DNA from: a virus
Reading direction: 5' to 3' (one strand)
IMG/VR virus record: IMGVR_UViG_3300028666_000375
Span: 1-26,376 of that record
DNA length: 26,376 nt
Part shown: piece by piece, positions 2,888-25,432 of the stretch
How the letters are laid out: each line of letters starts with the position of its first letter
Numbering within the stretch: position 1 is the stretch's first letter
Notes under the pieces: model-generated
What the model saw: the letters and a program-made list of their open reading frames with translations, nothing else
What the model was told of the DNA's origin: nothing
Databases searched by the model: none
Made by a program: the position numbers and the translations under genes

Positions 2888-3163
2888 CTACTCCACTAAT
2901 TCAAACTCAACTGGATCAAAATCTATTTCCGAATAGTTTAACTTTGTTCTCATATCTTTTTTATTTCTTTTAATCTGTTCCCACTTTTCTTCTGTAACTC
3001 TGTCAGTAAACACAGTATGGAAATCTCTATCCCAATTACCTTGTTTATTTTTATAGATACTAAATATTTTTTGAGTGTATTCAAAATTTTCTAAAATATG
3101 TATGATAGTATATTTGTTATCCATAAAACACATGGATGCTGTTGGTATATGTAATAATTTCAT
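2888..3163 (-). CDS. Array-family small protein (MKLLHIPT type)
   Basis: A 91-residue protein starting MKLLHIPTASMCFMD and ending DPVEFELVE. The GEY part of the signature is replaced by ASM. The start codon overlaps the stop of the polymerase gene (TAATG), and the polymerase tail codons contain GAGG as ribosome binding site. The middle is rich in Lys, Asp and Trp (TEEKWEQIKRNKKDM). It sits away from the main arrays, so relatives are dispersed as well as tandem. Confidence 0.85.
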   Translation of the reverse strand: MKLLHIPTASMCFMDNKYTIIHILENFEYTQKIFSIYKNKQGNWDRDFHTVFTDRVTEEKWEQIKRNKKDMRTKLNYSEIDFDPVEFELVE

Positions 3164-5374: not shown

Positions 5375-5384
5375 TAGGTTCCTA

Positions 5385-7133: not shown

Positions 7134-7400
7134 TTACTCCACCAATTCAAATTCATCAGGAGATATATTCCATCCTTTATTAAGTTCTTGTTTAAAGACA
7201 TGGTCGCCATACACAATAGTAGAGCCTTTATATTCTGTATCAAAGATAGCTGTATATTTTTTACTCCAAAGTGTTTTCCAGCATTCTTTTGTTATATCAG
7301 AAGCCCATTGTTCGTTATTTGAACCACAAGCAATAGCACTATTATAAGGATTTGCTATATAGCGACAAAATTGACCAGATGGTATATGTAGTATTCTCAT
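7134..7400 (-). CDS. Array-family small protein (MRILHIPSGQF type)
   Basis: An 88-residue protein with MRILHIPSGQFCRYI at the start and DEFELVE at the end. The first ~25 bases of the gene are nearly identical to those of the distant paralog at 14618-14872 (they share CCAGATGGTATATG and flanks in the + strand), pointing to recent duplication or recombination. The codons for the final VE give GTGGAG as ribosome binding site for the next gene. The middle contains a KECWKTLWSKKYTAIF stretch resembling the one in the next paralog (RQFWDRIWSEGRIKTF). Confidence 0.87.
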   Translation of the reverse strand: MRILHIPSGQFCRYIANPYNSAIACGSNNEQWASDITKECWKTLWSKKYTAIFDTEYKGSTIVYGDHVFKQELNKGWNISPDEFELVE

Positions 7401-7404
7401 TATA

Positions 7405-7635
7405 TTACTCCATCAATTCAAATTCTGTTTTATCTAACTTATAGGTAAGAATTTTTTTATCATAAAAAGTTTTAATTCTTCCCTCACTCCATATTCTGTC
7501 CCAAAATTGTCTTGAAACATTAGTTTTAGGAAGACCCCAATGGTCATCAACACCAGAAATATCCAGTAACCATTCGTCGGAACCTATTGGAGCTAATGTA
7601 CAGAATGTTCCCTCTAATATACATAGCATTCTCAT
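7405..7635 (-). CDS. Array-family small protein (MRMLCILEGTF type)
   Basis: A 76-residue protein starting MRMLCILEGTFCTLAP and ending TEFELME. GGAG, read from the YGD codons of the upstream gene, lies seven bases before the ATG. The body aligns loosely with the downstream neighbour around an aromatic (F/C)W...W stretch followed by FEL(V/M)E, so these two are probably a local duplication. Confidence 0.83.
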   Translation of the reverse strand: MRMLCILEGTFCTLAPIGSDEWLLDISGVDDHWGLPKTNVSRQFWDRIWSEGRIKTFYDKKILTYKLDKTEFELME

Positions 7636-7637
7636 AG

Positions 7638-8282
7638 CTAATCTCCATATAAACAGAAATGTAGATATCTAACTACATCTTCTTTAAGTTTAGTGGTCGA
7701 TTGAATGTTTGAATTAGGAATAATGTTAGTCATAACCATATCTGACATATCTGTTATAATTTCTGTTAATATATCATCAACACTATCAAACTCTAAAATG
7801 CCTAATCCAACTGCTTCTGTTAATTGTTTAATTGCTGAACCTGGACTTAAATAAAACTTAAATGTTCCGTCATATTTCTCAAAACTTAACATACATTGTA
7901 GCCCAGTATCCCCAACATTTACATCTAATTGTTCATCGTTTAATAATAGTATTTTAGTTTCATCATAATCGTTAAACTCTGATGTTTGTATATATGTTTT
8001 TATATCTTGTTCTATGTTATCTCTGTATAACAAATTATCTATTCGTTTCTTACTTCTACCTGCCTTACTTTTTACTTGTTTATATGCTAACATAATCATG
8101 GCATGTTTATATTCAGATAACAGCTCTTCCTTATTTGAAAGAATGGCTGCTACCTGAACATTATGCTTCAATAATGCATAATTCAAAAATCCTTTATCAG
8201 GAGTAAATGAATATGCGTTAAACGTGTATGATAAGTTAGAATACTTGCTTGGTTTACTAAACTGAATCGTCATCCTCGTCAT
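7638..8282 (-). CDS. Protein of unknown function, coupled to polymerase half
   Basis: A 214-residue protein whose start overlaps the end of the polymerase exonuclease half by 26 bases. It has no cysteine-rich or catalytic motif that I can recognise. Residues ~60-85 are basic and helical (AYKQVKSKAGRSKKRIDNLL), with mixed beta-like stretches after (GLQCMLSFEKYDGTFKFYLS). The position right after the N-terminal polymerase half suggests a replication role, but this is only context. Two ATGs lie three codons apart, so the exact start is uncertain. Confidence 0.72.
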   Translation of the reverse strand: MTRMTIQFSKPSKYSNLSYTFNAYSFTPDKGFLNYALLKHNVQVAAILSNKEELLSEYKHAMIMLAYKQVKSKAGRSKKRIDNLLYRDNIEQDIKTYIQTSEFNDYDETKILLLNDEQLDVNVGDTGLQCMLSFEKYDGTFKFYLSPGSAIKQLTEAVGLGILEFDSVDDILTEIITDMSDMVMTNIIPNSNIQSTTKLKEDVVRYLHFCLYGD

Positions 8283-10767: not shown

Positions 10768-11688
10768 TTAGTCCATATCGTCATCTGCGCGAAGTCCAAG
10801 CCATACTGGATGCCTTGGCTTATCTTTAACACCAACAGCAAAATACTTATATTTGAAAATAGAGTTCAGATATTTAGCTTGGTTATCCCAGATTTCTCTT
10901 CTCATTTCGTCGTTCAACCCAGAGCCAACACGAAGTTCTACACCTGTATATATATCAACTGCTACAATAGTTCCTAATGTTCCCTTACCAACCATGTCAT
11001 CTTTCTTTGAGGTCTTTTCTTTAAGCCCCAAAGCGTTTATAGTTGAAGCAGCGGTGTTCTCCATAAGCTCTTCAAAACCTGTAATTCTGGCTTCGCTATC
11101 ACTAAACCTCTTTAATTTCAATAGATAGCCTTCTTTATTTGTGCTTCTACCGAGTTTATACGGCCCACTATCAGACCTAATAATAATACCTTCAAATCCC
11201 TTATTCAAACATTCTTCTTCAAAATCTAGTAGTTCTTGTTTATTATTAAGTTTTTTAGGAAGCAGTTTAACAATACGCGGATCGTTAAACGTTATGCTTT
11301 CTAATAGTTCCATACGTTTTTCATAAGAAACTGTCAAATCGTCTTCAATTACATCAAAGATATAATAGATAAACTCTGGCTGACCATCAAATGACATAAT
11401 ATTGTGTGTAGATTCCTGAAAATTGAAATCTTTACTTGACACAATCTCGCCATCGAACTCTCCGGAAAAAATTTCAGAGTTTTTCGAAGCCAAACACAAA
11501 CTCTTTTCTAACTCGTTGCGGATGTATGTGTTAGGTATCTTTTTCAGTTTCCTACTTTTCACTAATTTATCCAAAAACAAGCAGCGAATACCGTCAAGTT
11601 TCGGTGTGCCATATACTGGATATTTAATGTTGTCAGTATCTTCTGGACTTAACGTGGCAGCTAACATGGGTCTTGTAATTTTACTCAT
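10768..11688 (-). CDS. ATP-dependent DNA ligase
   Basis: A 306-residue protein, close to the size of T7-type ligases. Motif I is TPKLDGIR with the nucleotidylated lysine K30, motif III region GEFDGEIV (76-83), motif IV EGIIIRS (166-172) and motif V LLKLKRF (189-195). The C-terminal part (EARITGFEELM, then GTLGTIVAVDIYTGVELRVG, ending PRHPVWLGLR) is an OB-fold like that of phage ligases. It seals nicks during phage replication or recombination. The start has GAGG about ten bases upstream, provided by the EV codons of the preceding array gene. Confidence 0.95.
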   Translation of the reverse strand: MSKITRPMLAATLSPEDTDNIKYPVYGTPKLDGIRCLFLDKLVKSRKLKKIPNTYIRNELEKSLCLASKNSEIFSGEFDGEIVSSKDFNFQESTHNIMSFDGQPEFIYYIFDVIEDDLTVSYEKRMELLESITFNDPRIVKLLPKKLNNKQELLDFEEECLNKGFEGIIIRSDSGPYKLGRSTNKEGYLLKLKRFSDSEARITGFEELMENTAASTINALGLKEKTSKKDDMVGKGTLGTIVAVDIYTGVELRVGSGLNDEMRREIWDNQAKYLNSIFKYKYFAVGVKDKPRHPVWLGLRADDDMD

Positions 11689-11690: not shown

Positions 11691-11948
11691 TTATTTTACC
11701 TCTATGATTTCAAATAGTTCTTGATGATATTTTAAGTAAATTGGTGTGTTACTATCTAAATATATTAAATAAGCACAGTTTAATATACTCTCACAATCTA
11801 TGCGTGATGTAGTTTCTAATATATCACCATAGAAATAACTTATATGTTTATCATATTCAGAAAAAGGAAAGGTTTGTTTATTACTATGTCTGTTGGTAAT
11901 ATATAAATACGTCCCATTTTCTATACATAATATCCTGTATTTACTCAT
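11691..11948 (-). CDS. Array-family small protein (YRILCIENGTYLY)
   Basis: An 85-residue protein starting MSKYRILCIENGTYLYITN and ending LFEIIEVK. It is the last gene of the second array, and its GAG GTA codons provide the ribosome binding site for DNA ligase. The middle is acidic and Tyr-rich (SEYDKHISYFYGDIL). Its ATGAGTAA start overlaps the upstream stop by eight bases. Confidence 0.87.
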   Translation of the reverse strand: MSKYRILCIENGTYLYITNRHSNKQTFPFSEYDKHISYFYGDILETTSRIDCESILNCAYLIYLDSNTPIYLKYHQELFEIIEVK

Positions 11949-12192
11949 CAGGGACCTCTATTATCTCAAATAATATTGGATTTTGTGTCATATTAAGTCT
12001 AATTCCATTTCCTAAAAACAAATATTCATGACGCATTTCGTTTATTACTTTTTGTATCATACTAACATGTGGTCTTTCAAATATTTTAAACTCGTTTCTA
12101 CTGCACTTAACTTCCCAACCTGTATAAAGAAAACTGCCATGTAAGCTTTCATATAAATATTCACCAGTCTCAATTATAAGTACTCTATACAT
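11941..12192 (-). CDS. Array-family small protein (YRVLIIETGEYLY)
   Basis: An 83-residue protein, MYRVLIIETGEYLYESLHGS at the start and LFEIIEVPDE at the end. The PDE tail is the out-of-frame reading of the next gene's ATG AGT AA. The middle (GWEVKCSRNEFKIFERPHVS) resembles paralogs that place a short 'F-K-I-F/Y-E' strand halfway through. The start overlaps the upstream stop by one base. Confidence 0.88.
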   Translation of the reverse strand: MYRVLIIETGEYLYESLHGSFLYTGWEVKCSRNEFKIFERPHVSMIQKVINEMRHEYLFLGNGIRLNMTQNPILFEIIEVPDE

Positions 12193-12470
12193 TAAGGAAC
12201 CTCTACAACTTCAAATATAGCAAGGTTATCTTTCATATGTATTACAGTATACGAGTCATTAAACGGAATGCGTATAGTATTTTCGTTTCTAATATTTCTT
12301 GCTAAAAATATTTCAGCACGTTCTTTTGACTGAACTTCATAGATATTATACACAGTAAAATCAGCATGTTCCAGCTCTAATTTAGAAAATAGGCTTGCGA
12401 ACTCATCTAAACCATATCTGCTGTATAAATATTCCCCAGTTTCTATACATAATATCCTGTAGTTACTCAT
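12192..12470 (-). CDS. Array-family small protein (YRILCIETGEYLYSRYG)
   Basis: A 92-residue protein. Its start (MSNYRILCIETGEYLYSR) and middle (LELEHADFTVYNIYEVQSKE) closely parallel the paralog at 13590-13874 (SVTELADADFLIYKVFETSS), and both share an NTIRIP stretch near the C-terminus. The two are therefore a recognisable duplicated pair within the array. It ends in IFEVVEVP. Confidence 0.88.
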   Translation of the reverse strand: MSNYRILCIETGEYLYSRYGLDEFASLFSKLELEHADFTVYNIYEVQSKERAEIFLARNIRNENTIRIPFNDSYTVIHMKDNLAIFEVVEVP

Positions 12471-12720
12471 ATGAAACCTTTATTATCTCAAACGCAGCGA
12501 GATTTTCAGTGCGAAAGTCTGCGTAACCGTTTCCACAACTTATTAGATAACCACAACGCAAGTAGTCTAAAGCGTCTTTACTACTATCAAATAGTCTAAT
12601 TTTTATTTCAATTTTTTCTTTATCTACATTTTCTAATTCATAACAGGAATACGGAGCAATTCCATTCATGCTATAAAGAAAATCACCACTCTCAATAAAT
12701 ACTATGCCCCATTTACTCAT
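12463..12720 (-). CDS. Array-family small protein (WGIVFIESGDFLY)
   Basis: An 85-residue protein starting MSKWGIVFIESGDFLYSMNG and ending AFEIIKVSYE. Here the usual EV is KV, so the ribosome binding site for the next gene is weaker (AAGGTTT rather than GAGGTT). The SYE tail is again the reading of the next ATG AGT AA in another frame. The middle has an EIKIRLFDSSKDALDYL stretch. Confidence 0.85.
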   Translation of the reverse strand: MSKWGIVFIESGDFLYSMNGIAPYSCYELENVDKEKIEIKIRLFDSSKDALDYLRCGYLISCGNGYADFRTENLAAFEIIKVSYE

Positions 12721-12730
12721 CAGGAACCTC
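12712..12730. repeat. Junction repeat, copy 1 (TTTACTCATCAGGAACCTC)
   Basis: A 19-base element joining two array genes. On the - strand it encodes EVPDE and the stop of one gene, the GAGG ribosome binding site, and the ATG AGT AAA of the next. Identical copies lie at 13155-13173 and 13866-13884, and near-copies at 13333-13351, 11941-11958 and 14059-14074. Confidence 0.8.
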
Positions 12731-12910
12731 TATTATTTCAAATTTTTCTTTGTTTTCTTTGAGAACAATACTGACAATTTCGTTATTATAATCATAGTAA
12801 TTAAACACTCATTTAGCCGGACTATCTTCATCAAAATATTTTTCTAATTCACTTCTATATTTTTTATAATCTACATATATTCCTTCTTCGATGTACAATA
12901 ATTTATACAT
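12713..12910 (-). pseudogene. Array-family gene interrupted by an in-frame TGA
   Basis: Reading from the ATG at 12910 gives MYKLLYIEEGIYVDYKK, then a TGA at codon 34 (12809-12811), and the same frame then continues VFNYYDYNNEIVSIVLKENK and ends KFEIIEVPDE at the normal junction. The start has GAGG upstream and the flanking junctions are intact. The simplest reading is a nonsense mutation in a 65-residue paralog (for example from TGG, giving AKW). Readthrough is possible but TGA is used as a normal stop elsewhere in the window. A sequencing error would give the same picture. Confidence 0.8.
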
Positions 12911-13163
12911 CCGGAACCTCTACAAGTTCAAAAAGTTCAGGATTTTTTCCAACACATATCCAACCGTAAATGCTACGTATGGAGTTTCTTATACCATGTT
13001 CTTCAAATCTTATCAAAATATTTTCTTTACTATCTTCATATATAGGAAAGTCTGATTTATCGGAAGCATTTACAATCTCTAATTCTGAATATATTTGTTC
13101 TTTATCTATATCTGTATGTAAAAATTCTCCAAATTCTATATAAAGTATTCTATATTTACTCAT
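12903..13163 (-). CDS. Array-family small protein (YRILYIEFGEFLH)
   Basis: An 86-residue acidic protein starting MSKYRILYIEFGEFLHTDID and ending LFELVEVPDV. The PDV tail comes from reading the next gene's ATG TAT AA (the broken paralog) in the other frame. The middle has SDFPIYEDSKENILIRFEE, a pattern of short strand then helix seen in several paralogs. Confidence 0.88.
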   Translation of the reverse strand: MSKYRILYIEFGEFLHTDIDKEQIYSELEIVNASDKSDFPIYEDSKENILIRFEEHGIRNSIRSIYGWICVGKNPELFELVEVPDV

Positions 13164-13173
13164 CAGGAACCTC
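13155..13173. repeat. Junction repeat, copy 2
   Basis: An exact 19-base copy of the junction element at 12712-12730, at the boundary between two array genes. The shared bases cover the C-terminal codons, the ribosome binding site and the next start. Confidence 0.8.
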
Positions 13174-13341
13174 TACTATTTCGAACCTTATTCTATTTTC
13201 TTTGAACATTATAAGCTCATTATTTTTCCAAAAACACCATCCATTATCTTTTGAAAAGAGTTCTTCTAAATGTTCTTTTGTAGTATATCTTGTTTTTATA
13301 TATTCGCCATCTTCTATGAACAATAATTTATATTTACTCAT
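13156..13341 (-). CDS. Array-family small protein, shortest intact member
   Basis: Started at the ATG at 13341 (ATG AGT AAA, with GGGG about six bases upstream) this is 61 residues: MSKYKLLFIEDGEYIKTRYT, a short middle (LFSKDNGWCFWKNNELIMFK) and RFEIVEVPDE. The open frame extends four codons upstream, but those belong to the previous gene's tail. It is the smallest intact paralog and so gives a view of the minimal fold: N-terminal signature, one helix or hairpin, C-terminal strand. Its middle resembles the broken paralog just downstream. Confidence 0.85.
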   Translation of the reverse strand: MSKYKLLFIEDGEYIKTRYTTKEHLEELFSKDNGWCFWKNNELIMFKENRIRFEIVEVPDE

Positions 13342-13597
13342 CAGGAACCCCAACTATCTCAAAGATTTCTGGGAATTGCAGTCTATCTATTTTTTTATCT
13401 GAAAATAATCTATATTGTTGGTCGCCATGCTCTACCCGTTTATAAGCTATTTTAATATCATTTGTTTCGTATATTTTACAGCTTTCTTTGTCAATTCCAT
13501 AAAAGCCTATCTCGTATGGAGAATATAAAGATCCCATATTTTTTCGTTCAAGCAAAAATTCACCAGTCTCAATTATAAGTATCCTGTATTTACTCAT
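13334..13597 (-). CDS. Array-family small protein (YRILIIETGEFLLERK)
   Basis: Started at the ATG at 13597 rather than the upstream TTG-type frame at 13618, since all neighbours use ATG AGT AAA at this junction. The 87-residue product starts MSKYRILIIETGEFLLERKN and ends IFEIVGVPDE. The usual EV is GV (GGGGTT), which still leaves a G-rich ribosome binding site for the next gene. The middle contains SPYEIGFYGIDKESCKIYET, similar in layout to the paralog at 12463-12720. Confidence 0.86.
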   Translation of the reverse strand: MSKYRILIIETGEFLLERKNMGSLYSPYEIGFYGIDKESCKIYETNDIKIAYKRVEHGDQQYRLFSDKKIDRLQFPEIFEIVGVPDE

Positions 13598-13874
13598 CTG
13601 AAATCTCCACAATTTCAAATATACTGAGGTTATTTTTAATTAAGATAACCTCATGCTTATTACCATTTGGAATGCGTATTGTATTACATTGTGTTGCGTT
13701 ATTGTTGAAATACATAGTAGCCTCGTATTTGGAAGACGTTTCAAATACTTTATATATAAGAAAATCAGCATCGGCTAACTCTGTAACTGAATACAAGAAA
13801 GGAAATCGCGACCCTCCTTCTCTGCTATATAAGTAATCACCAGTTTCTACACAAAGTATTCTATATTTACTCAT
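13590..13874 (-). CDS. Array-family small protein (YRILCVETGDYLYSREG)
   Basis: Started at the ATG at 13874, giving 94 residues: MSKYRILCVETGDYLYSREG, a middle with LADADFLIYKVFETSSKYEA and NTIRIPNGNKHEVILIKNN, and the end IFEIVEISDE. It is clearly related along its whole length to the gene at 12192-12470. The ISDE tail overlaps the next start. GAGG precedes its own ATG inside the upstream gene's EVPDE codons. Confidence 0.88.
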   Translation of the reverse strand: MSKYRILCVETGDYLYSREGGSRFPFLYSVTELADADFLIYKVFETSSKYEATMYFNNNATQCNTIRIPNGNKHEVILIKNNLSIFEIVEISDE

Positions 13875-13884
13875 CAGGAACCTC
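13866..13884. repeat. Junction repeat, copy 3
   Basis: The third exact copy of the 19-base junction element, again at a stop/start overlap between array genes. Three identical copies within about 1.2 kb, in genes whose middles differ, point to recombination or strong constraint at the seam. Confidence 0.8.
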
Positions 13885-14064
13885 AACTATCTCAAATAAA
13901 TATGGATATTCTTCATAATAAAAAGACTTGGCGCACTGTCTTTTAACACCATATCTATTTTTTAATCTTTCTAACAAATCTTCCAAGTTATCTCTTTCAA
14001 GTATCTTAAATCCTTCGTTTAAGTATCTTCCTTTCTCTATGAACAATACTCTATATTTACTCAT
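13867..14064 (-). CDS. Array-family small protein (YRVLFIEKGRYLNEG)
   Basis: Started at the ATG at 14064, giving 65 residues; the upstream nine codons are the tail of the preceding gene read in another frame. It begins MSKYRVLFIEKGRYLNEGFK and ends LFEIVEVPDE. The middle is basic (LERDNLEDLLERLKNRYGVK) and helical, in contrast to its acidic neighbours. Confidence 0.86.
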   Translation of the reverse strand: MSKYRVLFIEKGRYLNEGFKILERDNLEDLLERLKNRYGVKRQCAKSFYYEEYPYLFEIVEVPDE

Positions 14065-14296
14065 CAGAAACCTCCGCCTCTTGTATTTCAAAAGAAGCTC
14101 TGTCTTTTATACAAAAGTATGTATTTCCATTAATTATAACATGATATCTTTCAGACATACTGTTATTGGCATCATATGTAAAATACCTGTCTATATCTTC
14201 CTGGTAAAAAAGTAATGGTGTAATAGATCTGTCAGTTTCACATACATAACAACCTTCATCTATAAGAAGAAGTTTGTATCGCTTTTGTTTAATCAT
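14057..14296 (-). CDS. Array-family small protein (YKLLLIDEGCYVCE)
   Basis: A 79-residue protein starting MIKQKRYKLLLIDEGCYVCE and ending SFEIQEAEVSDE. GAGG, formed by the IED codons of the preceding gene, lies seven bases before the ATG. The C-terminal signature is followed by a repeated EAEV before the SDE tail. Two Cys in the signature region are unusual for the family. Confidence 0.86.
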   Translation of the reverse strand: MIKQKRYKLLLIDEGCYVCETDRSITPLLFYQEDIDRYFTYDANNSMSERYHVIINGNTYFCIKDRASFEIQEAEVSDE

Positions 14297-14298
14297 AG

Positions 14299-14613
14299 CT
14301 AATCCTCTATATTTAACAGAGCATTATAACATTGAATAAATACATTGTACATATCATATATAGAAATATACCCAATAAACATATTCTTATAATAGATTTC
14401 AAGTATCTCTTCATCTTCTTCGACAGTCTTAAATTTAATGAGACTGTTAGATAGATTATTAAGATTGAACTTTAATTCTTTATCGTAAAATCCAATGAAA
14501 CTTTTTGGTAATCCTTTATTGGTAATTGGAATAATAAAATCAGAACATAGACAAATAGCTGGTCTGCCATTATCAAGTTCAGTATAACTAACTGACATTA
14601 GTTCGTGCGACAT
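14299..14613 (-). CDS. Unrelated small protein inside the array
   Basis: A 104-residue protein lacking the N-terminal signature: MSHELMSVSYTELDNGRPAI, then a mainly beta-like body with LGYISIYDMYNVFIQ-like hydrophobic stretches near the end. It ends LLNIED, and its final GAG GAT codons still serve as ribosome binding site for the next array gene. It shows that the array accepts unrelated genes provided they end in the same junction. No family recognised. Confidence 0.75.
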   Translation of the reverse strand: MSHELMSVSYTELDNGRPAICLCSDFIIPITNKGLPKSFIGFYDKELKFNLNNLSNSLIKFKTVEEDEEILEIYYKNMFIGYISIYDMYNVFIQCYNALLNIED

Positions 14614-14617
14614 TATG

Positions 14618-14872
14618 TTATTCCTCTGTCTCTATTAGTTGAAACTCGCTATTTTCAAACTTCCAATCCTGTTCAAAATTATTAATTCTTCTAACTTCTG
14701 TATACATATAGTCGTACGAAAGATAGCTAATAATTTTCCATGCTAATTCTTCTACTGAATTGTTAATCAAAAAAGTCGATGCTTTACTAGCATTTTCTAT
14801 AATTTCAGTTATTTGATTTTCTTCGGTAAATACTTTTATATACTGTCCAGATGGTATATGTAGTATTTTCAT
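14618..14872 (-). CDS. Array-family small protein (MKILHIPSGQYIKV)
   Basis: An 84-residue protein starting MKILHIPSGQYIKVFTEENQ and ending SEFQLIETEE. The first ~25 bases of the gene almost match the start of the paralog at 7134-7400, seven kilobases away, although the rest of the two proteins differs. The tail GAG GAA gives the next gene's ribosome binding site. Confidence 0.88.
   Translation of the reverse strand: MKILHIPSGQYIKVFTEENQITEIIENASKASTFLINNSVEELAWKIISYLSYDYMYTEVRRINNFEQDWKFENSEFQLIETEE
14847..14867. repeat. 5' module repeat shared with 7375-7395 and 15890-15910
   Basis: A 21-base stretch containing CCAGATGGTATATG that encodes HIPSG of the N-terminal signature on the - strand. 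It is identical at 7375-7395 and differs by one base at 15890-15910. Related forms (CCTGTTGGTATATGAAGTA) occur at 24582-24600 and 25401-25419. Confidence 0.75.
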
Positions 14873-15166
14873 TTATACCTCCACTAACTCAAACTCCGCT
14901 TCTGTAAGTGTATCTATTGTTTTAAAGTCTATTTCAGCATTTTTGTATAATGCTCTGTTAAATATAAAATCATTATCTGGGTTTAGTTTACTGTAATTTA
15001 CTATTGTGGATATAATTTTTTCATATGTCCGAGAAGCAGTAACTCTACCAACCATTAGTTCTATGGGCCAACAAATTTCACCAAGAGGATACTTATCTGT
15101 GTTATTAGCATCTTCTGGAAAAAACCTAAAATATTTACCACTTGGAATATATAACAATTCTTTCAT
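14873..15166 (-). CDS. Array-family small protein (LLYIPSGKYFRFFPE)
   Basis: A 97-residue protein starting MKELLYIPSGKYFRFFPEDA and ending EAEFELVEV. The ribosome binding site is AAGGAT from the VRI codons of the upstream gene. GGAGG in its own last codons serves the next gene. The middle contains VTASRTYEKIISTIVNYSKL, like the helix in the next paralog (AWKIISYLSYDYMYTE), suggesting this neighbouring pair arose by duplication. Confidence 0.87.
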   Translation of the reverse strand: MKELLYIPSGKYFRFFPEDANNTDKYPLGEICWPIELMVGRVTASRTYEKIISTIVNYSKLNPDNDFIFNRALYKNAEIDFKTIDTLTEAEFELVEV

Positions 15167-15582
15167 TATTTTATCCTTACGATTTCAAACTCTGATGGAA
15201 TTGGAATTAGATTTTTACTATTTTTTTCTTTAAGCTTATACCATAAATCATGTCTATAAGTAATGTTCCATAAATCCATAGCAATATCAAATCTAAAATT
15301 AAAACTGGTTATCAAAGCTTGTAAAGTATGTTTGTTTGTATATGTAAATGTTTTTAATTCGACAAATCCATTTTCTGCTGTCATCATATCTGTAATAAAA
15401 AATCCAAGAATACCAGTATCTAAATCTTCATTTATAATACAACAATATTTATCAAGATATTTTTGCTTCTGTGCTAACCAACAAGATAAACTGTGTCCTC
15501 TTGATCTGCCGCTTGTTTTATCATAACATACTCCTATCATATTACCAGTAGGAATATGACAAATACCATATTTATAAGCCAT
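15166..15582 (-). CDS. Array-family protein, long member (YGICHIPTGNM)
   Basis: At 138 residues one of the longest members: MAYKYGICHIPTGNMIGVCY, then a large middle (ENGFVELKTFTYTNKHTLQA, then FDIAMDLWNITYRHDLWYKL), ending SEFEIVRIK. The final VRI replaces the usual VEV, but the codons GTA AGG ATA still give an AAGGA ribosome binding site. This is a useful case for separating DNA-level from protein-level constraint. Confidence 0.87.
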   Translation of the reverse strand: MAYKYGICHIPTGNMIGVCYDKTSGRSRGHSLSCWLAQKQKYLDKYCCIINEDLDTGILGFFITDMMTAENGFVELKTFTYTNKHTLQALITSFNFRFDIAMDLWNITYRHDLWYKLKEKNSKNLIPIPSEFEIVRIK

Positions 15583-15927
15583 TCAGTTAACCTCCACTAC
15601 TTCAAACTCATGTATCCCAACATCTAATGTATAGTCATTACATCCTGATATATCTATGCCTATATTACATCTAAAAGTTTTATCATTTACTAATTTTTTT
15701 AGAACATTTTTATTAGTAGAAATAACAACTTTCCTTTCAGCACTATTAGTAACTCCCTCTCCTATCATATATTCCTCTGCCAAGAAAAATCCAGCTACCT
15801 CTTCTGCTTGTTTGTGTGGAACTGTAATAAACCAAGTTTTTAGAAACTTACTTACATCACCACTATCATGACGTATCCAAATAAAGTTTCCAGATGGTAT
15901 ATGAAGTATTTTATACTGTTTCTTCAT
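15583..15927 (-). CDS. Array-family protein (YKILHIPSGNFIWIRHD)
   Basis: A 114-residue protein starting MKKQYKILHIPSGNFIWIRH and ending HEFEVVEVN. Its start lies 17 bases inside the upstream gene, with GGAG (from MEI codons of that gene) seven bases before the ATG. The middle includes FFLAEEYMIGEGVTNSAERK and CNIGIDISGCNDYTLDVGI, partly like the neighbours on both sides (FLSKEYADKFHKD and FRFDIAMDLW). Confidence 0.88.
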   Translation of the reverse strand: MKKQYKILHIPSGNFIWIRHDSGDVSKFLKTWFITVPHKQAEEVAGFFLAEEYMIGEGVTNSAERKVVISTNKNVLKKLVNDKTFRCNIGIDISGCNDYTLDVGIHEFEVVEVN

Positions 15928-16285
15928 AGTTAATCTCCATTATTTCAAACTCTTCTTTTTGTACTTGTTTATTATATTTATCAAAATTAGCCACATCGTA
16001 AATATCCATATATAGATGTTTATAAATATGGTCATTGTTTAAGATACCAGATAACAAGTTAAAATCAGTAGATATTATTTGAAATGCCGATCTATTTGTT
16101 CTATCCTTATGAAACTTATCTGCGTATTCTTTTGATAAAAAATAGTTAATTACACCAACTTCAATTCTTGTTTGATCAGTATCTGCTTGTTCTATTATTT
16201 TAAACTGAATAGTTCTATCATTTATAAATATTTCAATATATACAAAGTTTCCAGTAGGTATATGTAAGATAGAATAATAAGGCAT
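15911..16285 (-). CDS. Array-family protein, first of second array (YSILHIPTGNFVYIE)
   Basis: A 124-residue protein starting MPYYSILHIPTGNFVYIEIF. After the signature EEFEIMEI it has seven extra residues because its frame passes through the start of the next gene. GGAG lies about ten bases before the ATG, immediately after a terminator hairpin. This leaves no room for a normal promoter, so expression depends on readthrough or on a promoter inside the upstream genes. Confidence 0.87.
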   Translation of the reverse strand: MPYYSILHIPTGNFVYIEIFINDRTIQFKIIEQADTDQTRIEVGVINYFLSKEYADKFHKDRTNRSAFQIISTDFNLLSGILNNDHIYKHLYMDIYDVANFDKYNKQVQKEEFEIMEINYEETV

Positions 16286-16300: not shown

Positions 16301-16326
16301 TAATAAAAAATCCCCGAAGGGACTTT
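16301..16326 (-). terminator. UUCG-loop intrinsic terminator after the helicase block
   Basis: On the - strand AAAGTCCC pairs with GGGATTTT (one G-U pair) around a TTCG loop closed by C-G, the very stable tetraloop, followed by further T residues. It lies right after the stop of the small endonuclease fragment and before the first gene of the second array. Confidence 0.82.
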
Positions 16327-17852: not shown

Positions 17853-18602
17853 TTATTTTATCCAAGTTTTATTGTTTAATACATTAATGACTATATCGTA
17901 AGATACACCATATAGTTTTGATATTTTTAGTTTAGATATATCTGATGTGTTATACAGTTCTCTCATGGAATCGACTATTTCCCATGTTATGGTTGCTCTC
18001 CCATTAGTTTCTCCTTTTCTGCTATCAGACATTTTACCCTTTGTTTCATCTGATAGAATATTTCCTAGAGCATACGAATTACCTTTGCTTGCTTTTTGCA
18101 GCTTTCCTCTTGTTTCTTCCGTTATTATTCTATTTTTATTTAAGATAGCTAATTTTTGTTTAAGAGTTTCTGACATTTTCTTACCAAAATTAGGATTTTT
18201 ATTTCCAATTCTCGCAATAGATTTTTTTAACTTTGTTTCCTTGCTATCTTTTTTATTTTTGTGTGCCATAGATACTTTTTGTTTAGTTTCAACTGAATGA
18301 TGAAATCCTAATGTAGAACCTGCCGTTAAACATATGTTATACTCTGGTTTGTATGTGTCTATTGTTCTTTGTTCATAAAAAATTAAATCTTTCTTATCGC
18401 AATAAAACAAAACCTCAAACTTAAACTTATCTTTTGTATATTTATTCCAAGCACTTTGTAAATGCTGTGAATGATGCTCATTTTTGTTTAATTTTGATAA
18501 ATGACATGTCCACCGTTTTTGTATATTTACAGCAGAACCTATATAGCAATGGTTGTTTATTATGTTTGTTATTTTGTATATTCCAGAATTATTGTGGTTC
18601 AT
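17853..18602 (-). CDS. GIY-YIG homing endonuclease with NUMOD3-like repeats
   Basis: Started at the ATG at 18602 (AGAG upstream), giving 249 residues; the open frame to 18644 begins at TTG inside the helicase. GIY (7-9) and YIG (20-22), R30, E77 and N89 form the GIY-YIG nuclease core. The following region has repeats of the NUMOD3 type (SVETKQKVSMAHKNKK, SDETKGKMSDSRKGE) and ends in a helix-turn-helix-like ISKLKISKLYGVSYD, which together bind DNA. It overlaps the end of the UvsW-like helicase gene by 14 bases and precedes the DnaB-like gene, a typical seat for a free-standing homing endonuclease. Confidence 0.93.
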   Translation of the reverse strand: MNHNNSGIYKITNIINNHCYIGSAVNIQKRWTCHLSKLNKNEHHSQHLQSAWNKYTKDKFKFEVLFYCDKKDLIFYEQRTIDTYKPEYNICLTAGSTLGFHHSVETKQKVSMAHKNKKDSKETKLKKSIARIGNKNPNFGKKMSETLKQKLAILNKNRIITEETRGKLQKASKGNSYALGNILSDETKGKMSDSRKGETNGRATITWEIVDSMRELYNTSDISKLKISKLYGVSYDIVINVLNNKTWIK

Positions 18603-20788: not shown

Positions 20789-21049
20789 TTAGTTTAACCG
20801 AGTTTCAGTTATATCACAGATTTCAAACTCTTCAATGTATCGTAAATGAGCTTTTTTACCAAACTTTCTTATAGAAGTACTATTGGCAAATTTTACATAC
20901 TCTTTTGCTATGTATTCAGCATCCTGTCTGGTTTTATACATAGGATTTTCAGATTTAGCAGCATATGGCCAGTGTAATATGCGCCCAGATGTTATTATAA
21001 GAACAAAGAAGGTACCTTGTTTATGTCTGACTACGTTACCTGTATACAT
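20789..21049 (-). CDS. Array-family protein with shifted signature
   Basis: An 86-residue protein in which the signature appears at residues ~14-26 (FFVLIITSGRILHWPY, compare YRILIIETGEYLY) after a 13-residue basic extension MYTGNVVRHKQGT. The end EEFEICDITETRLN matches the C-terminal strand and then continues eight residues. It is the last gene of the first array. With the protein at 2458-2883 it shows that the signature need not be at the N-terminus, so it is not only a translation-start feature. Confidence 0.75.
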   Translation of the reverse strand: MYTGNVVRHKQGTFFVLIITSGRILHWPYAAKSENPMYKTRQDAEYIAKEYVKFANSTSIRKFGKKAHLRYIEEFEICDITETRLN

Positions 21050-21050
21050 T

Positions 21051-21296
21051 TTAAACTTCTACTATTTCAAACAATTCTCTATTATTTTTTAGAAATATAA
21101 GCTTACCGTTTATACCAACATTGAAATCATATTCGTCATGAAATATGTATTCAACTTCTTTTTTCGAGGACCATTCTGCTGGTACAAAGCTATTTTTATC
21201 TGACGATGCCACAACTTCCTCTGGTGAAAACAATGAACCACCAACATGACTTCTTAAAGCGTATTCTCCTGTTTCAATAATAAGTATTCTGTACAT
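21051..21296 (-). CDS. Array-family small protein (YRILIIETGEYALRSH)
   Basis: An 81-residue protein starting MYRILIIETGEYALRSHVGG and ending LFEIVEV. The start codon directly follows the upstream stop and has GGAGG six bases before it. The middle (ASSDKNSFVPAEWSSKKEVE) has the strand-then-helix layout SSKxE seen in several paralogs (AEFSSKEKILNIF at 21537-21788). Confidence 0.88.
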   Translation of the reverse strand: MYRILIIETGEYALRSHVGGSLFSPEEVVASSDKNSFVPAEWSSKKEVEYIFHDEYDFNVGINGKLIFLKNNRELFEIVEV

Positions 21297-21533
21297 TTAA
21301 ACCTCCACAATACAGAACAATTTATTATTTTCTTTTCCTAATCGTATTTGTTCTGTACGTCCTCTGTTAATTACTCTATTTCCATTAAAAATATTTGAAG
21401 CTTTCCCTATATTATGGTATTCAACTACTGAACACGGAAAATAGCGTTCAAATTCTTCTGAAAATAAAAATAAATTGCCATGACAATCTTTATATAAATA
21501 CTCTCCGCTTGGTATGTGAAGTATTCTAAACAT
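21297..21533 (-). CDS. Array-family small protein (FRILHIPSGEYLYKD)
   Basis: A 78-residue protein starting MFRILHIPSGEYLYKDCHGN and ending KLFCIVEV, where the usual E of FEIVEV is Cys. The middle has FSEEFERYFPCSVVEYHNIG, like the FSFEEI stretch in the two following paralogs upstream, so 21297-22040 looks like a run of tandem duplicates. Ribosome binding site GAGG comes from the EV codons of the preceding gene. Confidence 0.87.
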   Translation of the reverse strand: MFRILHIPSGEYLYKDCHGNLFLFSEEFERYFPCSVVEYHNIGKASNIFNGNRVINRGRTEQIRLGKENNKLFCIVEV

Positions 21534-21536
21534 ACT

Positions 21537-21788
21537 CTATACCTCAACTATTTCAAATAATGGTAAAATATCAGAGGTTAGCGCTGTATTTTCTCCGCAG
21601 ATATACACGGCATGACAGTCTGAATTATAAAATATGTTAAGTATTTTTTCTTTTGATGAAAATTCAGCTATTTTAAACACGGTTTCCTCATATTTTATTA
21701 TTTCTTCAAAAGAAAATAATTGATAATTAAAGTTAGGCTCCATATAGTATAAATACTCTCCGCTTTCTATGTGAAGTATTCTATACAT
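21537..21788 (-). CDS. Array-family small protein (YRILHIESGEYLYYME)
   Basis: An 83-residue protein, MYRILHIESGEYLYYMEPNF at the start, LFEIVEV at the end. It is the closest relative of the next gene upstream: both share an FSFEEI motif, an F-x-I-A-x-F stretch, a helix ending F (NIFYN or RLFQQG), an A/E-V-(Y/W)-I-x-G-x-N-T stretch, and D-x-L-x-LFEI. Pairs like this show duplication followed by divergence in the middle. Confidence 0.9.
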   Translation of the reverse strand: MYRILHIESGEYLYYMEPNFNYQLFSFEEIIKYEETVFKIAEFSSKEKILNIFYNSDCHAVYICGENTALTSDILPLFEIVEV

Positions 21789-21791
21789 ATA

Positions 21792-22040
21792 CTATACCTC
21801 AATAATTTCAAATAAATGTAAAGTATCCATGGATAGTTTAGTATTTGTTCCTTGTATCCATACCTCTTGTGTATTTCCTTGTTGAAAAAGTCTAACTATA
21901 TCTTCAATAACATCAAACCCGGCAATACAAAAACTTTGTAATGGATGTCGTGGTATTTCTTCGAAAGAATACAACAACATTGGACACACTTCTGTTGTAT
22001 ATAACCATTCGCCAGTCTCTATAAGAAGTATCCTATACAT
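21792..22040 (-). CDS. Array-family small protein (YRILLIETGEWLY)
   Basis: An 82-residue protein starting MYRILLIETGEWLYTTEVCP and ending LHLFEIIEV. It aligns along its full length with the gene at 21537-21788 (SFEEIPRHPLQSFCIAGFDV against SFEEIIKYEETVFKIAEFSS; VWIQGTNTKL against VYICGENTAL). The spacing to the next start is three bases with GAGG in the EV codons. Confidence 0.9.
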   Translation of the reverse strand: MYRILLIETGEWLYTTEVCPMLLYSFEEIPRHPLQSFCIAGFDVIEDIVRLFQQGNTQEVWIQGTNTKLSMDTLHLFEIIEV

Positions 22041-22043
22041 ATA

Positions 22044-22373
22044 TTATACCTCAATAATTTCAAATTCGTTTCTATTAAATTTTCTTTCTGAATTACCAAA
22101 CCAGCTTTCATTTAGTGTAGGTATATAAACATCACGTAAAAAAGTAATAGCTGATACTTTATCTTTAAAATATATAGCATCTTTTTTTAGTGTAAAATCG
22201 CGTCTATCTATACCAACATCTGCCAATACTCGAAGACTTACTGTTAATAACCAATGATAACCGGCTATATTTGGATAAAAATAATCATATACTATTTGAC
22301 AGGTACTACTATATATATAAGTTCCTGTCTCTATATGGAGAATAACATACTTTTTCTTTTTTGGTTTAGTCAT
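22044..22373 (-). CDS. Array-family protein (YVILHIETGTYIYSS)
   Basis: Started at the ATG at 22373 (ATG ACT AAA, overlapping the upstream GAC TAA stop), giving 109 residues; the open frame to 22385 begins at a TTG in the upstream gene's tail. A short basic leader MTKPKKKK precedes YVILHIETGTYIYSS, and the end is NEFEIIEV. The middle has VDYFYPNIAGYHWLLTV-like aromatic content and RDFTLKKDAIYFKDKVSAIT. Confidence 0.86.
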   Translation of the reverse strand: MTKPKKKKYVILHIETGTYIYSSTCQIVYDYFYPNIAGYHWLLTVSLRVLADVGIDRRDFTLKKDAIYFKDKVSAITFLRDVYIPTLNESWFGNSERKFNRNEFEIIEV

Positions 22374-22629
22374 CTTCAATCTCAACTATTTCAAATAAAT
22401 AATGATATTCAGAAATACTATATCCTACTCCATTTATTATGACTGGCCAAGTAGTATGAAATAAAAAATTAGTAGCTTCATTTACATTAGTAAACTTAAT
22501 AGGTAATCTACCAATCATATTACCGCATAGTTCTTCTGGCGTGAACGGTGAGTAACGCTTATCTCCTTGACAAGTATAAATATAGTCACCAGTTTCAGCA
22601 CATCGTATAGTATACTTTTTGTTAGTCAT
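22366..22629 (-). CDS. Array-family small protein (YTIRCAETGDYIYTCQG)
   Basis: Started at the ATG at 22629, giving 87 residues. It begins MTNKKYTIRCAETGDYIYTC and ends LFEIVEIEDD. The EDD tail is the out-of-frame reading of the next gene's ATG ACT AA. Its own start uses the same trick against the metallophosphoesterase tail (FEDD). FTPEELCGNM in the middle parallels the S-F/P-E-E-(L/I) element of neighbours. Confidence 0.87.
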   Translation of the reverse strand: MTNKKYTIRCAETGDYIYTCQGDKRYSPFTPEELCGNMIGRLPIKFTNVNEATNFLFHTTWPVIINGVGYSISEYHYLFEIVEIEDD

Positions 22630-23311
22630 CTTCAAACACCTGAATAATACTTTTAGTTTCAGTATTTAAATCAAACAAAATTGGTTTATTTGTAGTAGCA
22701 TACCGTTCATCGCAAATAGAGGCATTAGCACACCACACATTATTTACTACCTCTGTTTTTCCACCATTTAGATGTATATGTCCAAATTGAAATAACAATA
22801 ATTCAGGTAAATCAAACTCAATCTTTTGTCTAATTTCAGGACATCCAACATTTTCACCGCGTAATACTCTGTCTAATATACCGTAAGCTGGGCCATGTGT
22901 AATTAAAACATTAGTATCAAGTGGTATTTTAGCCCAATGTTCCTTTGTATTAGAGCCATCTTTTTTGAGGTTAAATGCCCAATCATAAAACCACTTGGAA
23001 TAAGAAGAACCGTAGAACTTAATACCTTCTATAATAATAGACTCACTTTCTAAATAAATTACTCCGTTATCTACACATAATTGTTTAGCTTCTTTTGGAT
23101 ACCTTTCAAAAAAGAAATCATGATTTCCAACACAACAAATTTTATAAGTATGAGGAAACTTACCAAAGATACCAATTTCTTTTGAAACTTCGTGTAAATT
23201 ACCATTCATAGTAAAATCACCAGAATGGAGTAAAATATCTCCATCAGGCATTTTAATTTTATCTAATTGACAATGGGTATCACTAACACAAACTATTCTC
23301 AATACAGTCAT
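22622..23311 (-). CDS. Calcineurin-like metallophosphoesterase embedded in the array
   Basis: A 229-residue protein with the full metal-binding set: SDTH (D11, H13), SGDF (D32), GNHD (N63, H64), THGP (H139) and GHIH (H178, H180). The layout (VGNHDFFFERYP, GIKFYGSSYSKWFYDWAF, NVLITHGPAYGILDRVLRG) resembles the MPPED-type metallophosphoesterases, which hydrolyse phosphodiesters; the substrate here is unknown, possibly a nucleotide or a second messenger. GGGGAG lies just before the ATG. Its tail IIQVFEDD ends at the standard stop/start overlap, so it is chained into the array exactly as a paralog would be. Confidence 0.92.
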   Translation of the reverse strand: MTVLRIVCVSDTHCQLDKIKMPDGDILLHSGDFTMNGNLHEVSKEIGIFGKFPHTYKICCVGNHDFFFERYPKEAKQLCVDNGVIYLESESIIIEGIKFYGSSYSKWFYDWAFNLKKDGSNTKEHWAKIPLDTNVLITHGPAYGILDRVLRGENVGCPEIRQKIEFDLPELLLFQFGHIHLNGGKTEVVNNVWCANASICDERYATTNKPILFDLNTETKSIIQVFEDD

Positions 23312-23561
23312 TTACTCCCCTTTCGACAATTTCAAAAGTTTCATTAGATATAATCAATTCTGCGTCACATTCTGGATTTTTTTCATAATAGTTTAGTATA
23401 TACTCTAATAATATGTTCATTTCTCTTTTAGTTCCAGTAAGCCTTAAGTTTTTAACGCGTGGGTCATACCATCCATAAAATCCGCTTATTTTATTGTTTT
23501 CAATAACAAAATAAACATACACACTCTCTGGTATATATAATAATGAATACTTTTTATACAT
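23283..23561 (-). CDS. Array-family protein with C-terminal extension (YSLLYIPESVYVYF)
   Basis: A 92-residue protein starting MYKKYSLLYIPESVYVYFVI; the usual TGE is ESV. FEIVE is followed by RGVNDCIENSLC, because its frame runs 29 bases into the metallophosphoesterase gene. GGAG for its own start lies seven bases before the ATG in the VEY codons of the preceding gene. Function unknown. Confidence 0.84.
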   Translation of the reverse strand: MYKKYSLLYIPESVYVYFVIENNKISGFYGWYDPRVKNLRLTGTKREMNILLEYILNYYEKNPECDAELIISNETFEIVERGVNDCIENSLC

Positions 23562-23766
23562 GACTATACTCCACTATTTCAAATTCATAAGTTTCATTAC
23601 AAAAATTACGTGGTATAAAATTCAATAATTCTTCTATTTCTTCTTTATTACTCTCTATTTTATATCCAGGTTTATTGACGTATACAGTAGAACAATCAAA
23701 ATTACGATAAGCATACCTATAAAACCAAACATATTCTCCTGTTGGTATATACAATAATCTATACAT
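23554..23766 (-). CDS. Array-family small protein (YRLLYIPTGEYVWFY)
   Basis: A 70-residue, aromatic-rich protein starting MYRLLYIPTGEYVWFYRYAY and ending YEFEIVEYSHV. The middle (KPGYKIESNKEEIEELLNFI) aligns with the next gene downstream (NLRLTGTKREMNILLEYIL), both having a strand then an N/T-K-x-E-x-x-x-L-L helix, so the two form a duplicated pair. Confidence 0.87.
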   Translation of the reverse strand: MYRLLYIPTGEYVWFYRYAYRNFDCSTVYVNKPGYKIESNKEEIEELLNFIPRNFCNETYEFEIVEYSHV

Positions 23767-24073
23767 CAGGAACCTCCACTATCACAAATTCACAAAGTAA
23801 ATTACTCTCAAATCCTTTAAAAGTATAATTTCCTTTTGCTATCATTTTATCTAATATACTTTCAGTTGGTTGAGAAACTAAATAAGTGGCAAATTTTGGA
23901 AATGAAGAATGACTTAATAAGAAACATTTAGCTGAATAAGTAGAATGAAACTCGGCTTCTTCTTCTCCATAGTTTTTCCAGCCATGCCAATAATAATACA
24001 TACCACTCTTTTTGTGTGTTTGTTTATGTCCACGTAATGTTTCATCATGTAGTATAATTTTATATTTTGACAT
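23759..24073 (-). CDS. Degenerate array-family protein
   Basis: A 104-residue protein with MSKYKIILHDETLRGHKQTH at the start: the first strand of the signature is kept but PTGEY is lost, with an inserted RGHKQTHKKSGMYYYWHGW. The end CEFVIVEVPDV is standard. It either diverged or acquired an insertion in the signature hairpin. The middle has STYSAKCFLLSHSSFPKFAT. Confidence 0.8.
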   Translation of the reverse strand: MSKYKIILHDETLRGHKQTHKKSGMYYYWHGWKNYGEEEAEFHSTYSAKCFLLSHSSFPKFATYLVSQPTESILDKMIAKGNYTFKGFESNLLCEFVIVEVPDV

Positions 24074-24327
24074 TATTTAACCTTTATTAGTAAAAATTCA
24101 TTTTTAGATGTTTCAATCTTAATATCTTTAAATCCGGTATCTATATATACTTTATTTTCTTTTCTAACGCTTAAATATCTAAATATACTCCAAATATACC
24201 CATTAAATGTTGCTATTCTATCTGTTAAAAAATATGCTGGTGTTAAATCCCAGCTATCCATGGATATTACGCAACTTCTATACACATATTTTCCAGTAGG
24301 TATATGAAGAATGGCATATTTATTCAT
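24073..24327 (-). CDS. Array-family small protein (YAILHIPTGKYVYRS)
   Basis: An 84-residue protein starting MNKYAILHIPTGKYVYRSCV and ending NEFLLIKVK, a weak form of the C-terminal strand. Its ATG AAT AA start gives the NE stop of the upstream gene. The middle is Tyr/Trp-rich (TFNGYIWSIFRYLSVRKENK). The KV codons (AAA GTT) leave a poor ribosome binding site for the next gene. Confidence 0.86.
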   Translation of the reverse strand: MNKYAILHIPTGKYVYRSCVISMDSWDLTPAYFLTDRIATFNGYIWSIFRYLSVRKENKVYIDTGFKDIKIETSKNEFLLIKVK

Positions 24328-24622
24328 TTGTAATCTCTATTAGTTCAAATTCAGATTTCCACGCTTCTGTTATTTCTCTCATATTAACTGTAATATCTAT
24401 GTATTTAACCTTATAGCAATTTATAAAACTATCTTCTATCTGATATTTAGACCATTTAGAAGTGTCCTCGTTGTTTAAATAATATAAACAAGATTTATTA
24501 TCAATATTTTGAATACCAGAAACATATAATCCAGTAGGTATATGTAAAATCCTATACATCGCTCGGTATCTTACGTAAGTTCCTGTTGGTATATGAAGTA
24601 GTTTATAGTGTTTATCGTTCAT
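24320..24622 (-). CDS. Array-family protein with two N-terminal signatures in tandem
   Basis: A 100-residue protein that begins with HYKLLHIPTGTYVRYRA (5-21) and then at residue 22 repeats the module as MYRILHIPTGLYVSG before a normal middle and the end SEFELIEITNE. The first copy resembles the start of the gene at 25211-25432 (LLHIPTGTYV) also in DNA. The second ATG (24559) lacks a clear ribosome binding site, so the fusion is probably translated as one chain. It looks like the product of recombination between conserved 5' modules, with the body of one gene deleted. Confidence 0.87.
   Translation of the reverse strand: MNDKHYKLLHIPTGTYVRYRAMYRILHIPTGLYVSGIQNIDNKSCLYYLNNEDTSKWSKYQIEDSFINCYKVKYIDITVNMREITEAWKSEFELIEITNE
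24579..24600. repeat. 5' module repeat shared with 25398-25419
   Basis: Twenty-two bases containing CCTGTTGGTATATGAAGTA that encode LLHIPTGT on the - strand, identical at 25398-25419. The two copies lie in the first half of the tandem-signature gene and at the start of the first array gene. Confidence 0.75.
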
Positions 24623-24873
24623 ACTTTAACCTCTATGATTTCAAACTCAACATAATTCATAGCTGTTAGTATATCACTATTACCAAATATATCGCGGTTA
24701 ACTCTATTCTCTCTGACAGCAAATGTATAACCTTTTGGAAAAATTTTATCTAATGTTTGTTTAGGGTAGTTAGCCGGATAATCTGATAAATATCTATAAT
24801 AACTACCATCAAGTTCTACAACGGTGTGTAAATATAGTCCAGTTGGTATATGAAGTATTTTATATTTAATCAT
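24619..24873 (-). CDS. Array-family small protein (YKILHIPTGLYLHTV)
   Basis: An 84-residue protein starting MIKYKILHIPTGLYLHTVVE and ending VEFEIIEVKV. Start and upstream stop overlap as ATGA, with GAGG in the preceding EV codons. The middle includes RYLSDYPANYPKQTLDKIFP and a FAVRENRVNRDIFG loop. Function unknown. Confidence 0.88.
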   Translation of the reverse strand: MIKYKILHIPTGLYLHTVVELDGSYYRYLSDYPANYPKQTLDKIFPKGYTFAVRENRVNRDIFGNSDILTAMNYVEFEIIEVKV

Positions 24874-25214
24874 ACTTCAACCTCTATAATTTCAAATTCA
24901 GCAATTAGTAACGTTTCGTATCTTTTATCATCATCTTCCGTCACGTTTTGTATTAAGAAATCAATAAACGAATAATACCACTCATCCACATATTCAGGAT
25001 CATTATATAATGTTTCACCGACAAGTTTATGACATATAGCTTCTTTTTCTGAATCTAAACAGTTACCATCCTCATTAAATATAGGAGTGGTTAAGTAATT
25101 TTCCATTACAATTTCAAACTCTTTTTTAAACTTATCTAATGTAACGTTATCTTTAAGTTCGTCTGTAATAAAATATTCACCTGATAATAAATGAAGTATT
25201 TTATATTTACTCAT
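24870..25214 (-). CDS. Array-family protein (YKILHLLSGEYFITDE)
   Basis: A 114-residue, strongly acidic protein starting MSKYKILHLLSGEYFITDEL and ending AEFEIIEVEV with a TGA stop inside the next ATG (ATGA). The middle is largely helical and acidic (DNVTLDKFKKEFEIVMENYL, ICHKLVGETLYNDPEYVDEW). HLLSGE links it to HLLTGE in the gene at 2458-2883. The ribosome binding site GAGGA comes from VRI codons of the upstream gene. Confidence 0.87.
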   Translation of the reverse strand: MSKYKILHLLSGEYFITDELKDNVTLDKFKKEFEIVMENYLTTPIFNEDGNCLDSEKEAICHKLVGETLYNDPEYVDEWYYSFIDFLIQNVTEDDDKRYETLLIAEFEIIEVEV

Positions 25215-25432
25215 GTAGAAATCCTCACTGGTTCAAATTCACATCTATTTAGTTTACGTTGATGTTTTATTTTTTCATTTCTAAAATATGCTTTTATTTC
25301 TTTTAAAGAACCGAATATTTTTGGAGTTTCTTTTACGATACTTTCTCCCCAAACAGTCCATACATCTTTGCCATTCACATATATACTTGAAACATAGGTT
25401 CCTGTTGGTATATGAAGTAACTGGTATCTCAT
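25211..25432 (-). CDS. Array-family small protein, first of the first array
   Basis: A 73-residue protein starting MRYQLLHIPTGTYVSSIYVN and ending CEFEPVRIST. As in the gene at 15166-15582 the end has VRI instead of VEV, but GTG AGG ATT keeps GAGGA as ribosome binding site for the next gene. AAGGGAA precedes its own ATG, immediately after a terminator hairpin, so there is no visible promoter of its own. Confidence 0.86.
   Translation of the reverse strand: MRYQLLHIPTGTYVSSIYVNGKDVWTVWGESIVKETPKIFGSLKEIKAYFRNEKIKHQRKLNRCEFEPVRIST

Follow-up and report, generated by a model that had tools for sequence, protein, structure and literature searches.

Shine-Dalgarno (SD) sequences are well known to lie within upstream genes and to influence which codons and stops are used at the ends of those genes (Palleja et al., 2009; PMC2784483, citing Eyre-Walker, 1996). 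Translationally coupled pairs such as trpB-trpA of E. coli have overlapping stop and start codons, spacings of -4, -1, and -8 nt are enriched among them, and the SD influences coupling (PMC12548453; PMC6728339; PMC10666635); the -8 nt overlap is a known class but a less favoured one (PMC12548453; PMC10666635), being described as less enriched than shorter overlaps and as reinitiating less efficiently (PMC10666635). In the fusellovirus SSV4, a stop codon and an SD are fused as GGTGA (cited in PMC2784483). Here, we describe an array of small head-to-tail genes in the window, that is, the whole 26.4 kb (26,376 nt) of IMG/VR virus record IMGVR_UViG_3300028666_000375, in which the SD of a gene is usually written into the last codons of the gene before it, and some of the apparent protein conservation at the gene ends is really a translation signal.

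The minus strand of the window carries genes for a DnaB-like helicase, pieces of a family A polymerase, an ATP-dependent ligase, and a sigma-70-like factor, along with approximately 34 small paralogs in tight head-to-tail blocks. At the N-terminus, these array members have the motif M-x-(K/R)-Y-x-I-L-x-I-(P/E)-x-G-x-Y in common, and at the C-terminus F-E-h-h-E-V (written below as F-E1-h-h-E2-V for its two conserved glutamates); the middle is very variable. A longer copy of the window phage (phage A; contig G001, 35.9 kb, with 18,441 identical bases shared with the window) and a second phage with arrays of its own (phage B; contigs G002-G005, helicase 57% identical) were included, so that such genes number more than 100 across the two related phages; 112 members were usable.

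Like coupled pairs, array genes have overlapping stop and start codons or a short spacer between them, with junctions of -8 nt (50 of the 112), -4 nt (7), -1 nt (5), and 0 to +4 nt (34). Unlike coupled pairs, their dominant spacing is -8 nt. Where the overlap is 8 nt, the upstream stop is contained in the ATG AGT AA, ATG ACT AA, or ATG TAT AA of the next gene's first codons, and tails of DE, YD, or DV result. As in SSV4, a compact viral genome fits the end of one gene to hold the SD of the next; there, however, the stop codon is part of the SD, whereas in the array the SD is made of sense codons ahead of the stop, and in 8-nt overlaps that stop falls within the next gene's first codons. Compared with the embedded SDs of PMC2784483, the arrangement recurs here in a tandem family of approximately 110 paralogs, so that one protein position can be followed through different registers and its choice of codon and of residue compared. 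What is new is the scale, together with a register that can move and junctions resembling cassettes in a family not described before; the principle is not new.

SD cores were scored as GAGG, AGGA, GGAG, AAGG, or AGGT at -16 to -4 of the next start. An automatic rule assigned as the next start the first ATG, within a fixed distance of the stop, to begin an open reading frame (ORF) of at least 45 codons; eight next starts were instead assigned manually and can be excluded. In the window, a core lies within the last codons of the upstream gene at 29 of 33 junctions with an adjacent start, compared with 2 and 0 in two adjacent control stretches, and in both phages together a core is present at 78 of 106 junctions, compared with 5 and 3 in two upstream control stretches. 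These cores sit inside the upstream ORF, ahead of the downstream start. When synonymous codons were shuffled with the protein fixed and the family's own codon usage kept, mean SD pairing was -2.5 kcal/mol versus an observed -6.0 kcal/mol (n=105, p=3e-17). Junction RNA was no more structured than mid-gene or shuffled sequence in a folding comparison, and there is thus no sign of an SD-sequestering hairpin. The first-pass annotation of this DNA had read nearly every array gene as ending in ATA/GTN-GAG-GTN, an observation that was only partly confirmed: such ends exist and the individual sequence statements that were checked are correct, but GAGG occurs at 19 of 33 window junctions and a literal E-V in 17 of 34 members (glutamate at the E2 position in 28 of 34), so that "nearly every" is true of the SD core and too strong for GAG-GTN. 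Its placement of GAGG 5-9 nt before the next ATG held in 48 of 55 cases over all members.

Synonymous codon use at the end of the upstream gene is bent towards the SD. Among glutamate codons in the SD interval, defined as those that end 5-10 nt ahead of the next start, 77 of 88 are GAG and 11 are GAA, whereas the GAG:GAA ratio is 67:207 in other tail codons and 130:446 in gene bodies; outside the interval, approximately 23% are GAG. With automatic starts only, the ratio is 23:2 in the SD interval versus 25:61 elsewhere for the window (p=1e-8) and 51:8 versus 37:125 for the family outside the window, which the first-pass annotation had not seen (p=6e-18); phages A and B are each significant. 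Lysine (AAG) and arginine (AGG) show the same bend, with GAG, AAG, and AGG enriched solely in the SD interval. The choice of GAG is imposed by translation, and the proposal that translation signals account for part of the C-terminal conservation is borne out, as GAG versus GAA follows the distance to the next ATG across the 112 members.

The effect is lost where no start follows. Members without a following gene that kept GAG GTN had been named beforehand as the finding that would point to protein-level constraint; the six members of this kind end in FEIVED, FEIIEID, FEIIEVD, FEICDITETRLN, FEVVDLITDINK, and FDIVKTNPISL, and none has GAG in the motif. The first three keep E2 and use GAA GAA, and the other three have lost E2. 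These ends also bear on the idea that codon choice near stop codons is a general stop-context effect with no relation to the next gene's start. SD and stop positions are correlated in short junctions, as that idea would have it, but wherever the next ATG lies at a distance of 5-10 nt, GAG appears irrespective of whether the stop is at 3, 6, or 12 nt, no GAG is found in FEIIEID or FEIVED, which have a nearby stop and a distant next start, and the six members without a following start, a small set, show no GAG preference. We consider a stop-context effect extremely improbable.

The SD can sit on either conserved glutamate depending on the position of the next ATG, and the GAG codon moves along with it. 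Members were sorted into three register groups by next-ATG position: SD on E2 (56), SD on E1 (31, one corrected start counted), and SD elsewhere (23). In the first group (FEIVEV, FEIVEVPDE, and others), E2 is GAG over GAA by 42:5 and E1 of the same members is mostly GAA (35:15); in paired comparisons within genes of this group, 27 combine E1=GAA with E2=GAG and one shows the opposite (p=2e-7). In the second group (FEIIYD, FEVIYD), E1 is GAG by 28:2, compared with 17:54 where the SD does not fall on E1, and E2-V is replaced by YD, which is the next gene's TATGACTAA. In the third group, E1 is GAA by 19:2 and E2 is GAA by 10:5, or else AAA or AGA. Two likely A/B counterpart pairs show the switch. 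In the first (SH-aLRT 94), phage A has ATAGAGGTTAAAGTATG and phage B has ATAGAACTAGGAGAAGATGAATG, the ends being ATA GAG GTT AAA GTATG (A, 19226) and ATA GAA CTA GGA GAA GATGAATG (B, 21260); in the second (SH-aLRT 93), GAA CCA GTG AGG ATT (A, 18634) corresponds to GAG GTC ATA GAA ATT (B, 19551), with GAGG 13 nt before the start in B, longer than usual.

If protein-level constraint alone were at work, FEIVEV would be kept for the fold or for partner binding and GAG would be incidental. Several observations agree with this: every register shows conservation of F-E1-h-h, glutamate remains at E2 in 15 of 23 members with the SD elsewhere, GAGG shares one frame in 53 of 54 cases, and structure prediction gives a C-terminal strand at high confidence. 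In AlphaFold2 models, this strand lies at F78-E82 in one FEIVEV member (pLDDT 91) and at F72-Y76 in one FEIIYD member (pLDDT 87), with F-E-h-h-X2 inside the last strand and the next residue outside in both. GAG and GAA are nevertheless synonymous and follow the distance to the next start, E1 and E2 of the same gene differ in codon 27 times versus once, and members without an adjacent start use GAA. The synonymous data thus refute protein constraint as the sole explanation, in which role we regard it as highly unlikely, and it remains as the second half of a dual constraint.

Amino acid counts separate the two halves. E2 is E in 47 of 56 members with the SD there and in 15 of 23 with the SD elsewhere, and E1 is E in 101 of 110 overall, with F-E1 conserved whether or not the SD lies on it; the glutamate therefore has protein-level support. 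The residue after E2 is V in 31 and I/L in 13 members with the SD there versus V in 1 and I/L in 14 without it (p=3e-5), and after E1 the V:I/L ratio is 12:19 with the SD there versus 7:69 without it (p=7e-4), indicating that the SD partly drives the use of GTN, which completes GAGG, over ATN. The F-E-h-h strand and, in part, E2 itself reflect protein-level constraint; V rather than I/L after E2 is largely imposed by translation, as are the tails PDE, PDV, and YD, which are the next gene's ATGAGTAA, ATGTATAA, and ATGACTAA.

A different account holds that recent duplication or recombination at gene borders keeps junction DNA alike with no selection on the SD. Phage B has one near-perfect tandem duplicate with a period of 217 nt and two differences over approximately 240 nt, made up of near-identical adjacent members (L022 10370-10594 and L024 189-413; one recently copied unit), and member 24320-24622 of the window repeats its N-terminal motif (HYKLLHIPTGTYV...MYRILHIPTGLYV), which suggests unequal recombination within the array. 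However, no second recent pair of this kind was seen, and the window showed none; conserved N-terminal residues have mixed codons (six for L; GAA 31 and GAG 5 for the E of GEY); E1, 9 nt from E2, stays mixed in codon; and information content upstream of the start is uneven over the junction, with maxima at -10 and -8. That terminal branches are close to one change per site further suggests that recent copies do not carry the codon pattern. This account is accordingly given very little probability.

Dual constraint at the ends of co-directional array paralogs, from the protein and from an embedded SD, is in our judgment very probably correct. The paralogs are so tightly packed that the SD of each gene has to fall inside the last codons of the previous one. 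The protein needs F-E-h-h-(E/K/R/Y) for the predicted C-terminal beta strand of a small domain, and translation keeps a purine SD core (GAG-G, AAG-G, AGG, GGAG) in whichever codons finish 5-10 nt ahead of the next ATG. Glutamate satisfies both, written as GAG in the SD position and as GAA outside it; when the next start shifts by approximately 9 nt, GAG is found on the other conserved glutamate, and in the commonest junction, the 8-nt overlap, the next gene's first codons also supply the upstream stop and last residues. The host ribosome presumably uses these SDs. Some points weigh against this explanation. About a quarter of the junctions (28 of 106) are without a strong SD core. The members are related, and their tree is poorly resolved: only four inner branches are well supported, these give only 1-2 formally independent pairs, and tests of such pairs are therefore without power. 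The case rests on synonymous differences among proteins with terminal branches near one change per site; from these branches we argue that synonymous sites are saturated, which is an argument and not a test.

Array members span 2888 to 25432 of the window and continue on further contigs; the range first assigned to the pattern, 11941-16285, takes in only some of the blocks. The blocks, single members, and example SDs of the window are as follows.

2888..3163, minus strand: outlying member, ending FELVE and stop (GTGGAGTAGTAATATG)
7134..7635, minus strand: two outlying members (7134-7400, 7405-7635), ending FELVE and FELME, each before the stop; the terminal GGAG serves the next start
11691..12720, minus strand: array block (11691-11948, 11941-12192, 12192-12470, 12463-12720), consecutive members overlapping by 1-8 nt; DNA ligase gene 10768-11688 draws on the GAGGTAAAATAAAA of the last member
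11954..11958, minus strand: example SD, GAGGT from the E-V codons of 11941-12192; next ATG 11948-11946
12713..12910, minus strand: broken member, MYKLLYIEEG..., in-frame TGA at 12808-12810, then ...FEIIEVPDE and stop
12903..14296, minus strand: array block (12903-13163, 13156-13341, 13334-13597, 13590-13874, 13867-14064, 14057-14296), every join an 8-nt overlap, ATGAGTAA or ATGTATAA
14618..16285, minus strand: array block (14618-14872, 14873-15166, 15166-15582, 15583-15927, 15911-16285), with SD cores including GTGGAGGT, GTAAGGA, and ATGGAGA
15174..15178, minus strand: SD AAGGA from the V-R-I codons of 15166-15582; next ATG 15166-15164
20789..22629, minus strand: array block (20789-21049, 21051-21296, 21297-21533, 21537-21788, 21792-22040, 22044-22373, 22366-22629); 20789-21049 has no adjacent next start, and its end has decayed to FEICDITETRLN
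23283..25432, minus strand: array block (23283-23561, 23554-23766, 23759-24073, 24073-24327, 24320-24622, 24619-24873, 24870-25214, 25211-25432)
25222..25226, minus strand: SD GAGGA from the V-R-I codons of 25211-25432; next ATG 25214-25212

As had been noted, the purine tract is kept where the peptide deviates, with ends of GTA AGG ATA AAA TAATG (15166-15582) and GTG AGG ATT TCT ACATGA (25211-25432). The broken member 12713-12910 still provides the SD-bearing GAGGTTCCTGATG for the next gene; a sense reading of its TGA was discarded, since TGA is the stop of other members. Unrelated genes were also said to behave in this way, which is correct for the named examples (polymerase piece 3163-4458, end GAGGATGACTAATG; 14299-14613, end GAGGATTAGCTATG) but not general: at 25 non-family junctions of these phages, GAG accounts for 4 of 9 glutamate codons in the SD interval versus 13 of 46 elsewhere, a weaker bias that is not significant.

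A cassette unit can be defined as running from an ATG to just before the next ATG, with a length of 1 mod 3 in -8 nt junctions; the 217-nt period of the phage B duplicate is 1 mod 3, as such a junction requires. Duplication of an 8-nt-overlap unit would be expected to give an immediately translatable copy. We tentatively raise the possibility, which we hold to be rather less than even, that the array consists of interlocking expression cassettes, in which C-terminal codons hold the next unit's ribosome-binding site and the stop is taken from the next unit's start, such that tandem copies or insertions would be translated at once and pass translation on. Cassettes of this kind would let a phage expand and diversify a large repertoire of small proteins without new regulatory DNA. 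The array suggests how long tandem arrays of small phage genes may grow yet stay translatable. It also offers a natural experiment that parts protein-level from translation-level constraint, since the same glutamate occurs with and without SD duty and its codon changes accordingly. It further serves as a warning that short C-terminal motifs of dense phage operons, EV, PDE, or YD tails among them, can be read as protein motifs though they are partly ribosome-binding sites and start codons.

No array lineages beyond phages A and B were found in IMG/VR (by sub-alignments, helicase, or DNA pattern), GTDB genomes, or INPHARED, and loci with helicases at approximately 25% identity had no confident array members; a GTDB pattern match (L110) was set aside as what looks like a chance match in a MerR-type protein. 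Eight array members tested against Pfam gave no match at E 0.1, and a PHROG search gave a single borderline match (E 0.03). Member 21537-21788 (minus strand; model me776ef894850) has a confident predicted fold (pLDDT 91) with no clear PDB or BFVD match, fold searches of the array model returning weak matches at best (PDB E 2.2, BFVD E 0.16, VIA Z 2.2).

Terminator-like hairpins lie at 25456-25484 and 16307-16326 (minus strand), just upstream of two array blocks, such sites being approximately as many as expected from shuffled sequence. Between array blocks, 17853-18605 and 20048-20743 (minus strand) encode a GIY-YIG endonuclease with NUMOD3 motifs and a treble-clef zinc finger protein (DUF4379), and 4682-5431 (minus strand) encodes the sigma-70-like factor, with regions 2 and 4. 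The family A DNA polymerase is split into two ORFs approximately 3.8 kb apart, 8257-10080 (exonuclease and the start of the polymerase domain) and 3163-4458 (DYSQLEL motif onward), both on the minus strand, and phage B has the same split (contig G005, 22663-24477 and 26164-27447).

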